A stretch of 47,269 nucleotides of DNA. Origin: a bacterium. Lineage in GTDB: Bacteria > Patescibacteriota > Microgenomatia > UBA12405. A program made the position numbers and the translations under genes. The DNA lies in assembly GCA_021817905.1 (NCBI GenBank), contig JAKAFM010000007.1, positions 1-47,269 of the forward strand. The letters are read 5' to 3'. A model generated the notes under the pieces. That model had not been told where the DNA came from. It saw nothing but the letters and a program-made list of their open reading frames with translations, and did not search any database. This document shows positions 7,812-10,635 of the stretch, piece by piece. The stretch's first letter is position 1. Each line of letters starts with the position of its first letter.

Positions 7812-9059
7812 ATGTTTTTTCAAAAAAAGTCGTCAGTATGGTCTATTAGCCTGGTAACAATGCTTTTCGCATTTGCTATCGTTTTTTCAACAAATAAGAA
7901 AGCTAACGCTGAAGATACTAAACCAGTCAAGCCATTCGAAATTACAATTAACTCGCTAATCAGCGCCCCTTATGGACACTGGCCGATTCTACCCCATTTT
8001 ATAGTCACGAACACGTTAGACAATGACCGCTTTGTAACTGTCACCACAACTGTTGGTGGACTTGCTTGGGGAGGATCAGTAACCAACTATACTTTCCCAG
8101 ACACGGGAGGATACGGATGGACAATCAGCAACATGACCGGCAGCTCCGACAGCATGACTATAACCTGGAATGGTTGGATTAATGGCCATTCTTCAGTCAA
8201 AGTCGGCTTTCAAACAGACACTCAGTCATGGACCAATCCATACACAGTCGAGTTCCTCAAAATGCAAGTGGAAAACAAAATTCTCACCTCTACCATGACA
8301 CTCACACCTGGTCCCGGTCTTTCTGGCACAATGAGTGCTGATCGCATCGAAAATCAAGCAGCACCAATTTACTGGCTCAATTTAACTACAACATCCATCT
8401 ACATGGGTCAATTCTCGGCACCAAAACCTTTCACCTCTAACTGTAATTTGATTGGACTCCCCAGCGGATATTATGGAAACTATGCCCGCACATTTGAATA
8501 CCATCAATGGTCATTCGAATATGTCAGTGGCGGACCAATCTGTGAAATAGATGCTAACATAATCACTAACGCCGGTAACTACGATAGTATAATCCCTGTC
8601 TCAACTACATTCACCGCACCAAAATCACAAGTCATTGTTGACGGCGGACTTATGTTATCCACAGGAAACGTCTATAGTGGAACAGTAACTGGCAAGTACG
8701 AAATCGGCATCGGCGTTTACAACAACAGCCCATATACACAAACCTTAGTAAACTTCAGCTTTTCAGACCAACCAAATCACATTCTCCCGACAGAGTTTGA
8801 CTGCGTGATTGGTCAACTTCCAAACCAGAACATTACTGTCATCCTCGACGGTAATTCATCTGGTTCTTTTAGAGGACACATATACGGGCTGCGTCCATGG
8901 TCAGGAATTCGCGTAATTTGTCAGGAAGTCCCTTTGCTACCCAGCCAATACACATACACCTTCATCGCTACCGACCAATATGGAGTACCTTCTTTTGGAC
9001 ATTACGTGACCGTCAACGTTAGTCTCAAACAAGTTTTCTTTCCTCTCGTTATGCATTAA
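7812..9059 (+). CDS. secreted hypothetical protein, cassette 1
   Basis: Signal peptide MFFQKKSSVWSISLVTMLFAFAIVFSTNKKANA; SD AAGGAG; C-terminus FFPLVMH. Confidence 0.85.
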   Translation: MFFQKKSSVWSISLVTMLFAFAIVFSTNKKANAEDTKPVKPFEITINSLISAPYGHWPILPHFIVTNTLDNDRFVTVTTTVGGLAWGGSVTNYTFPDTGGYGWTISNMTGSSDSMTITWNGWINGHSSVKVGFQTDTQSWTNPYTVEFLKMQVENKILTSTMTLTPGPGLSGTMSADRIENQAAPIYWLNLTTTSIYMGQFSAPKPFTSNCNLIGLPSGYYGNYARTFEYHQWSFEYVSGGPICEIDANIITNAGNYDSIIPVSTTFTAPKSQVIVDGGLMLSTGNVYSGTVTGKYEIGIGVYNNSPYTQTLVNFSFSDQPNHILPTEFDCVIGQLPNQNITVILDGNSSGSFRGHIYGLRPWSGIRVICQEVPLLPSQYTYTFIATDQYGVPSFGHYVTVNVSLKQVFFPLVMH

Positions 9060-9158
9060 CCCCCTCCCCCACCAGGCTCGGTCAATCTTTCGGGATTGAC
9101 CGAGCACCCCCGGTGGCTCTCAGCCAAAAACCAACAAAAACATCTGCGGTCGTATTAA
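9046..9158 (+). repeat. Cassette 1 3' module (two hairpins, A-rich linker, right inverted repeat)
   Basis: About 96% identical to 10522-10635; hairpin 9076-9105 GCTCGGTCAATC/GATTGACCGAGC, then TGGCT-CTC-AGCCA, then TCTGCGGTCGTATTAA 9143-9158. Confidence 0.9.
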
Positions 9159-9247
9159 CAACACTACTAACTATTACTCATTTATTGATTTTGTTATTAA
9201 GTTAAAAAAGCATTGCGCTTTTGGTACTTTTTACAAAAATCCGTTCT

Positions 9248-9266
9248 TTAACAATACGACCGCAGA
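9248..9266 (+). repeat. Cassette 2 left inverted repeat TTAACAATACGACCGCAGA, overlapping boxA-like GTTCTTTAACAAT (9243-9255)
   Basis: Exact copy of 7702-7720. Confidence 0.9.
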
Positions 9267-9294
9267 AGTATCTCTAATTTTTACAAAACCCTAA

Positions 9295-9342
9295 GTGAGA
9301 ACTCTTTTGAGTGGGCCTCTCCCCTTTCAAATGAGTTCTCAC
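9295..9342 (+). promoter_or_regulatory. 5' leader hairpin of cassette 2 (10-bp closing stem)
   Basis: GTGAGAACTC (9295-9304) / GAGTTCTCAC (9333-9342). Confidence 0.65.
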
Positions 9343-9374
9343 CCAATAATGGGTTATAGAGAAAAGGAGATACA

Positions 9375-10535
9375 ATGTTTTTTTCTAACAACAGACGTTT
9401 ATGGTCGATTAGCATAGCTACGCTAGCATTTGCCGTAGCGTTTTTTATAATCGGAGGAATCGCAAAGGCTGATGACAATCCGTATGTAACAATGACAACG
9501 ACAGTCAGTCCCTCTTACATTGATCAGCCGTTTTCAATTACATCGGAACTTCACAACAACACTAATAACTATGAGCATGTCGCGTGGCAAATATACGTTG
9601 ACCCTAGCGAAATAAGTTGGACCTGGCCATTTAGTTTCACAAAAGACCAAACACTTTGTCAGATCAACAACGCAGCCTTGACCAGTATCGAACCATATAT
9701 GTATTTTGAGTCCGTCATAGCAGGTATAGTCATCACCCCAGGTGAAACCGCCTCGATCAGCTGCGGTTTAACCAGTGCATCCCCGATTAATACCCAGATA
9801 CGGACTTGGGCAACCTGGGATCAACCTGCAGTCTACGCAACCAATATAGTCAGCGTCAGCGTAGCGAGTCCCGTCGACTTTAGTCTCAATGTTTTCCAGT
9901 TACCCTATCCAACACCGGGATATTCGTTTGGTATCGGAATGGCAATAACGTCTGTGTTTTCTTATACGGGTCAAATCGCCTTATCTATCCCCGGAGGAAT
10001 TAATATTCCCTACTTTTGCAACGGCCCATCAACGTGTTTCTTGAACTTCGGAAGTTCGGATAAATCAGGTAGTAGTACATACTATCTGTACGGTCATGTA
10101 ACTGTTACCGACAGTTACACATTTACGGCAACTTTCACAGAAATAAACACAGGAATTACGAAAACAATTACCACTGAAGTGTACCTCGCAGCCACCCCAA
10201 CCCCGCCACCACAGATTATCTATATAATTCCTAGCCCAATAACCCCCGGAAAAACTATCACTATTCAAGGTTCATTTTTAAGTCTTCCGGGAAACCAAAA
10301 TGGTCTTTCAGTCTGGTTTACTGACCCAGCGACCGGAGGAACTAACTGGTTAAGTTATAATGATGTGATTGCTGCCGGAGGCTTCTGGAACTCCAACACC
10401 ATAATACTAAATGTTCCAGAAAACTTGTGGCCTTGCCGCAACATCGTCGTTACAGTAGTTAGAGAAAATAGCTATTCAACGCCCTATCCAACAAGAACAA
10501 AATGTTTTAACTACTTTCCAATCGTTATGCATTAA
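9375..10535 (+). CDS. secreted hypothetical protein with possible IPT/TIG-like C-terminal region, cassette 2
   Basis: Signal peptide MFFSNNRRLWSISIATLAFAVAFFIIGGIAKA; IIYIIPSPITPGKTITIQGSFL; C-terminus YFPIVMH. Confidence 0.8.
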   Translation: MFFSNNRRLWSISIATLAFAVAFFIIGGIAKADDNPYVTMTTTVSPSYIDQPFSITSELHNNTNNYEHVAWQIYVDPSEISWTWPFSFTKDQTLCQINNAALTSIEPYMYFESVIAGIVITPGETASISCGLTSASPINTQIRTWATWDQPAVYATNIVSVSVASPVDFSLNVFQLPYPTPGYSFGIGMAITSVFSYTGQIALSIPGGINIPYFCNGPSTCFLNFGSSDKSGSSTYYLYGHVTVTDSYTFTATFTEINTGITKTITTEVYLAATPTPPPQIIYIIPSPITPGKTITIQGSFLSLPGNQNGLSVWFTDPATGGTNWLSYNDVIAAGGFWNSNTIILNVPENLWPCRNIVVTVVRENSYSTPYPTRTKCFNYFPIVMH

Positions 10536-10635
10536 CCCCCCTCCTCCACCAGGCTCGGTCAATCTTTCGGGATTGACCGAGCACCCCCGATGGCTCTCAG
10601 CCAAAAACTAACAAAAACATCTGCGGTCGTATTAA
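10522..10635 (+). repeat. Cassette 2 3' module with right inverted repeat
   Basis: 4 differences over about 114 nt from 9046-9158; hairpin 10553-10582. Confidence 0.9.

Follow-up and report, generated by a model that had tools for sequence, protein, structure and literature searches.

The leader and trailer of bacterial rRNA pair into a long helix, and in the tether model proposed for it NusB-bound boxA keeps the leader by the RNA exit channel, where the leader can pair with the trailer on its emergence (PMC10250234). BoxA has also been found in other mRNAs, including those of suhB, prsA and ParE-like toxins and upstream of rpsJ, as a NusB/S10 site in the 5′ untranslated region (UTR); these boxA elements lie within 50 bp of the start codon, the suhB boxA represses translation, and no helix closing the 5′ and 3′ ends is described in the text consulted (PMC5725501). 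Intergenic type III hammerheads, with three stems and a conserved core, occur by bacterial and phage genes and have been suggested to split long transcripts (PMC3088659). Here we describe three genes, units 0, 1 and 2, whose mRNAs appear to be framed in the manner of a pre-rRNA. They lie in a stretch of 47,269 nucleotides (nt) (hereafter the window; contig JAKAFM010000007.1 of assembly GCA_021817905.1, from a bacterium of the lineage Patescibacteriota, Microgenomatia, UBA12405).

A boxA-anchored frame around exported-protein genes

Read 5′ to 3′, a unit consists of a hairpin with a loop ending in GC (NNNGC), a boxA, a leader strand starting within the final three nucleotides of that boxA, an open reading frame (ORF) for an exported or membrane protein, a 3′ hairpin lacking a U-tract, an A/G-rich linker and a trailer strand (Table 1); past the trailer, many units of the family carry either a hammerhead-like ribozyme or an ordinary terminator. 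This frame architecture is well supported by the sequence comparisons presented below, and the best explanation, that these are mRNA units built like pre-rRNA and closed into loops by a boxA tether, is probably correct.

Compared with the bacterial rRNA leader (rrnTAC; PMC10250234), the units share the boxA sequence and the pairing of the leader downstream of boxA with a trailer at the far end, and their register equals that of the relatives' own 16S and 23S. Unlike rRNA operons they enclose an exported-protein ORF and no rRNA, and are therefore rRNA-like in their working, yet no rRNA unit. Further differences are the length and position of the helix (13-22 bp and touching boxA, whereas the boxA-to-boxC spacing in Enterobacteriaceae is 18-19 nt) and the added elements, namely the NNNGC hairpin upstream and a ribozyme or 3′ hairpins at the end. 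The hammerheads, unlike those previously described (PMC3088659), directly adjoin a leader-trailer helix, and the mRNA concerned carries a leader of rRNA type; their scores are below the Rfam gathering threshold. In the literature, of which our coverage was incomplete, each component is known singly and the combination was not found.

The pattern GYWCYTTAACAAT has exactly three matches in the window's genome, one per unit: GTTCTTTAACAAT in units 0 (2728) and 2 (9243), and a version with two changes in unit 1 (7697). GTTCTTTAACAAT fits the boxA consensus GYTCTTTAANA of PMC5725501. Among family relatives, five pattern matches lie directly upstream of 16S or 23S rRNA, and we therefore regard the pattern as the family's rRNA boxA; boxA of this rRNA type is present in all three units as well as before the 16S/23S of relatives. 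Two matches lie upstream of rpsJ, which encodes S10 (NusE), and the remaining family matches are mostly upstream of exported or membrane protein genes with the unit anatomy. There are ~16 such units across the family, and all 15 of the 15 proteins examined have a signal peptide, a lipobox or a transmembrane (TM) segment; recognised families among them are LemA, TPM and Bax1-I. As to rpsJ, boxA GCTCTTTAACAAT in genomes G002 and G026 (loci L137 and L139, both at 501-513) lies between tuf and rpsJ, after a strong hairpin, a position that fits the Nus-factor autoregulation reported for other bacteria (PMC5725501).

The leader strand, which starts within boxA (at offset 8-12, mostly 10), has its complement 3′ of the ORF, at a distance of 0.7-1.8 kb and usually beyond a strong 3′ hairpin. 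At this fixed register an exact complement of at least 11 nt was found for 10 of 26 non-rRNA family sites, versus 2 of 754 other offsets at the same loci, and when partners were swapped between loci 18 of 650 combinations were complementary, chiefly among units with a common CTCTTTCT strand. Among the ~16 units the leader/trailer sequences fall into at least eight unrelated kinds, each still pairing; such unrelated strands that keep pairing amount to covariation of a predicted long-range helix. The rRNA operons of relatives served as a positive control and showed the identical register, with 23S+5S enclosed in G012 and G001 and 16S in G002. For a negative control we took 30 boxA-identical sites elsewhere in the class, outside the family, where the pattern match rate is near that of a reversed-pattern control; they had no such complement. 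The system defined by this boxA is thus confined to the window's family in the sample examined.

The hairpin upstream of boxA has a 5-6-nt loop and mostly lies 8-20 nt from it. It is present at 19 of 30 family sites, compared with 1 of 30 class sites and 65 of 1500 random positions (4.3%). Its stem shows covariation of 1.07 versus 0.27 when shuffled (0/500 shuffles), a value computed from 17 rows chosen because they pair, the unbiased figure being 19/30.

Units 1 and 2, their shared ends, and unit 0

An earlier reading made from the window's letters alone (the sequence-only reading) had pointed out two 3′ blocks, 9046-9158 and 10522-10635, whose differences amount to three substitutions and one C indel. 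Aligning the blocks from the last codons onward reproduced this count, with 97% identity over 99 nt (9060-9158 versus 10537-10635), and the 12-bp hairpin (9076-9105 and 10553-10582), the TGGCT-CTC-AGCCA hairpin and the A-rich linker ascribed to the block were all located. The proteins, said in that reading to share only signal-peptide style and C-terminal pattern, are clearly related over no more than their first 40 residues (z 7.5) and have a few C-terminal residues in common; their middles are unrelated. From residue 41 to -10 the two proteins score at the shuffled level (z 0.4 global, 0.2 local), and the identity of the middle coding sequences is 64.1% versus 63.8% in the shuffle. Coding regions as similar as the blocks, which would have spoken for simple recent duplication of the whole gene, are thus not what we found, and with the middles at shuffle level and the ends at 97% that origin is excluded.

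The inverted repeat described for the block is present, and it extends further than had been recognised, forming 14-mer pairs around each entire gene. The 817-kb genome has exactly four occurrences of the 14-mer AATACGACCGCAGA, in + orientation before and inverted (-) after each of the two genes, and therefore the whole gene, beyond its 3′ end, is framed. That the 3′ block in units 1 and 2 represents the trailer end (3′ UTR) of this larger gene frame is well supported by the comparison. Because the trailer must match the leader, selection would preserve the two frame ends together and leave the protein body open to change or replacement, which would account for 97% non-coding identity around unrelated protein bodies. 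Conserved non-coding sequence had been taken to imply function, recent exchange or gene conversion; the block does look functional, and either a shared frame with swapped middles or conversion of the ends fits. As for the origin of the likeness, frame duplication and end conversion both fit. We picture the two units as frames that would have been inserted together, near-identical in their ends and with unrelated protein bodies. Covariation, which had been expected of the block's two hairpins, was absent there, both being identical in the two copies, and was seen in the leader/trailer strands and the upstream hairpin across other units. A promoter mark initially suspected in a TTGC-loop hairpin, placed exactly 30 nt ahead of the repeat, gave way to the NNNGC hairpin plus boxA.

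The proposal that the 114-nt block is an element repeated in Candidate Phyla Radiation genomes was not borne out: we found no further copy of it, or of its 99-nt core of identity, in its own genome, family genomes, the class sample, GTDB (searched for the exact hairpin), IMG/VR, phages or plasmids. A single weak family match to the block lies inside an FHA-like coding gene and is a chance match, as are the single-repeat matches in IMG/VR and GTDB, where the partner repeat is absent. Homologues of either protein were not found in family genomes, and Pfam, NCBIfam and PHROG gave no family for them, protein 2 being weakly IPT/TIG-like; AlphaFold models (pLDDT 37) were too poor to use. The hypothesis that FP[LI]VMH at the C-terminus is a sorting signal in wide use was likewise rejected, as no comparable exported ORF with that ending was found in 385 class genomes.

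In relatives G002, G025 and G007 the GT-C gene upstream and the RelE/YafQ-like toxin gene downstream are convergent, with overlapping stop codons, whereas in the window the two genes, both intact, are 3,053 bp apart; units 1 and 2 therefore constitute a lineage-specific insertion. No target-site duplication was found around the insertion (7607-10659), and a search of the units 1/2 region for intrinsic terminators (GC hairpin plus U-tract) gave zero terminator-like sites.

A scan of the window for long hairpins led to unit 0 (2694-3992), through a 14-bp stem at 3822-3853 with a UUCG loop as in the unit 1/2 hairpins. Unit 0 has the anatomy of units 1 and 2 in different sequence, down to a small second 3′ hairpin and an A-rich linker. 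Counterparts of its protein sharing the C-terminus were found in G009 and G021. The unit-0-type proteins of L123, L125 and L099 have a common AAKKAAETRR-like motif, N-terminal, before the TM segment.

Hammerhead-like elements and a proposed mechanism

Three-stem type III hammerhead elements lie -1 to +3 nt from the trailer in unit 0, L119, L123, L125, L126, L127 and L129. Stems I, II and III differ in sequence between elements yet stay complementary, and the core CUGAUGA..GAAA is conserved. Degenerate hammerheads are found in L118 and L122, in L140 the element is displaced downstream by ~76 nt, and two are present in L135. Several units thus characterised probably end in a self-cutting ribozyme, as judged from stems and core, while the units of same-genus G006, as read from their sequence, have ordinary terminator-like hairpins at the 3′ end. 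In unit 0 the predicted cut falls after A3928 and the next gene, encoding a GT2 glycosyltransferase, starts at 3993; in five genomes the GT2 start codon is within a few bases of the hammerhead, so that cleavage would split the two mRNAs. Within 3947-3992 of unit 0, and likewise in its relatives, stem II of the hammerhead may contain the GT2 Shine-Dalgarno sequence. L135 (G028:C1) has a single boxA region between two near-identical hammerheads, located at -82 and +2480 from boxA; of these, the upstream hammerhead, with CUG at the cut site, may be inactive.

In the mechanism that we propose, boxA would act as the NusB/S10 (NusE) site of rRNA antitermination, and Nus factors would keep it at RNA polymerase during mRNA synthesis. 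The tethered leader would meet the trailer on its emergence, closing the mRNA into a presumably stable loop with paired ends; transcription would pass the 3′ hairpins and both ends would be protected. The ribozyme, where present, would fix the 3′ terminus of the mRNA and free the gene that follows. We infer this antitermination and co-transcriptional closure from the parallel with rRNA. A broader proposal, which we advance tentatively and with roughly as much doubt as conviction, is that the family may use the rRNA antitermination machinery to produce a distinct group of mRNAs that are closed into loops and encode surface and exported proteins, many of these mRNAs being cut by a hammerhead at the helix.

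Several observations weigh against this interpretation. The pattern gave no rRNA boxA in the window's own genome (the rRNA contig is missing, or the sequence is a variant), no trailer was detected for some of the boxA-like sites in the family (owing to a contig end, distance or a chance match), and one rRNA locus of the four tested (G023, on too short a contig) showed no pairing. The NNNGC hairpin is absent from the rRNA leaders examined and is therefore not a plain rRNA boxB; our guess is that it is boxB-like or end-protecting. With RF00008, L119 (27.1 bits, E 0.00019) and unit 0 (17.5 bits, E 0.12) score under the gathering threshold of 48.5 bits, at which Rfam reports no ribozyme in the units, and catalysis is therefore a prediction. 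Finally, the hammerhead core is absent after the trailer in units 1 and 2, which have neither a hammerhead nor a terminator-like end.

The boxA-tethered leader-trailer helix has been regarded as a ribosome-assembly device, and here it frames exported-protein mRNAs in equal register. If the proposal is right, the units would be natural closed-loop bacterial mRNAs and would offer a clean system, free of ribosome assembly, for testing whether boxA tethering promotes long-range RNA pairing. A boxA plus an adjacent complementary trailer provides a search rule for such genes in other genomes.

Alternative explanations and further features

One unlikely alternative is a small mobile element with passenger genes, its termini being the 14-bp inverted repeats and its subterminal region the 3′ module. 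Two units with identical repeats do occupy a lineage-specific insertion whose flanking genes touch in relatives, and they hold unrelated passengers within one frame, but there is neither a target-site duplication nor a transposase in the units nor another copy in the genome; with target-site duplication and dispersed copies both absent, ends of a transposon or miniature inverted-repeat transposable element were rejected. Moreover, the repeats begin inside boxA, unit 0 and its relatives have different repeats at that offset, and several genera have unit-0-type genes at a conserved position ahead of GT2. The equal arrangement of rRNA operons had already disfavoured this explanation as a control.

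About as improbable is a history in which gene conversion homogenised the 3′ ends of ordinary tandem paralogues, here units 1 and 2, and in which the block is a mere transcription terminator. It would account for the 97% block identity and for the common signal peptide and C-terminal residues. Against it, the U-tract is absent and the region has no terminator-like site; boxA, the leader/trailer pairing and the other units are left unexplained, and a third unit of equal anatomy but different sequence was found. Conversion may still be the way in which the two frames stayed alike.

We consider it less probable again that no RNA pairing takes place, with TTTAACAAT serving as the -10 element of a promoter and the inverted repeat as an operator. 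TAACAAT resembles a -10 box, and sigma-70-like -10 elements upstream of the units are inconsistent; however, TTTAACAAT also occurs between tRNA and 23S rRNA, in one genome it stands just after a TATAAT box before 16S, and the second strand lies 3′ of the stop codon, 0.7-1.8 kb off, and varies together with the first. Site-specific inversion, in which a recombinase flips the genes or a 96-bp promoter segment via four alternating repeats, is very improbable: the + - + - orientation of the repeats around surface protein genes suits it, but the repeats differ between units yet keep the boxA register, rRNA operons are arranged alike, and no recombinase is found at the locus.

Integron cassettes likewise combine one ORF with a structured 3′ module (attC) in tandem. 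The comparison with attC suggested by the sequence-only reading failed, as the R′/R″ core (GTTRRRY / RYYYAAC) is unmatched in or beside the block on both strands, and the pairing partner here is, unlike in cassettes, the 5′ leader of the unit's own gene.

Table 1. Features of the three units and of the insertion, numbered from the first nucleotide of the window
Feature	Position	Strand	Remarks
Unit 0 leader hairpin GTTGGC-ACAGC-GCTAAC	2694-2710	+	loop NNNGC
Unit 0 boxA GTTCTTTAACAAT	2728-2740	+	
Unit 0 leader strand AATCTCTTTCTAATTTTTTGC	2738-2758	+	21 nt; duplex -20.0 kcal/mol
Unit 0 5′ UTR hairpin	2819-2861	+	
Unit 0 ORF	2945-3808	+	one TM segment; open from 2828, ATG at 2945; C-terminus ..VKIVILP
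Unit 0 3′ hairpin	3822-3853	+	14 bp, TTCG loop
Unit 0 trailer strand GCAAAGAAAAAGAAAGAGATT	3902-3922	+	86% paired with leader strand
Unit 0 hammerhead ribozyme-like element, type III	3923-3992	+	stem III AGGGT/ACCCT, core CUGAUGA..CGAAA; RF00008 17.5 bits, E 0.12
Insertion holding units 1 and 2, lineage-specific	7607-10659	.	synteny with three relatives
Unit 1 leader hairpin TGGC-TTTGC-GCCA	7664-7676	+	
Unit 1 boxA GTACCTTAACAAT	7697-7709	+	
Unit 1 leader strand AATACGACCGCAGA	7707-7720	+	
Unit 1 5′ UTR hairpin	7724-7773	+	RNA fold of 7705-7811, z -4.3
Unit 1 signal-peptide protein	7812-9059	+	415 aa, C-terminus FPLVMH
Unit 1 3′ hairpin 1	9076-9105	+	UUCG loop
Unit 1 3′ hairpin 2 TGGCT-CTC-AGCCA	9114-9126	+	
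Unit 1 trailer strand TCTGCGGTCGTATT	9143-9156	+	duplex with leader -23.1 kcal/mol
Unit 2 leader hairpin AAAAGC-ATTGC-GCTTTT	9206-9222	+	
Unit 2 boxA GTTCTTTAACAAT	9243-9255	+	
Unit 2 leader strand AATACGACCGCAGA	9253-9266	+	
Unit 2 5′ UTR structure	9269-9374	+	RNA fold z -6.1
Unit 2 signal-peptide protein	9375-10535	+	386 aa, C-terminus FPIVMH
Unit 2 3′ hairpin 1	10553-10582	+	
Unit 2 3′ hairpin 2	10591-10603	+	
Unit 2 trailer strand TCTGCGGTCGTATT	10620-10633	+	

The outer stem of the unit 2 5′ UTR structure (GUAUCUCU/AGGAGAUAC) covers the Shine-Dalgarno sequence; unit 1 is without such masking. Downstream of the insertion, 10660-11186 on the minus strand encodes the RelE/YafQ-like toxin together with a NikA/RHH-like antitoxin, and the synteny with GT-C is kept in G002, G025 and G007. 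At the contig end, a perfect 27-nt direct repeat occupies positions 1-27 and 55-81 of the window.
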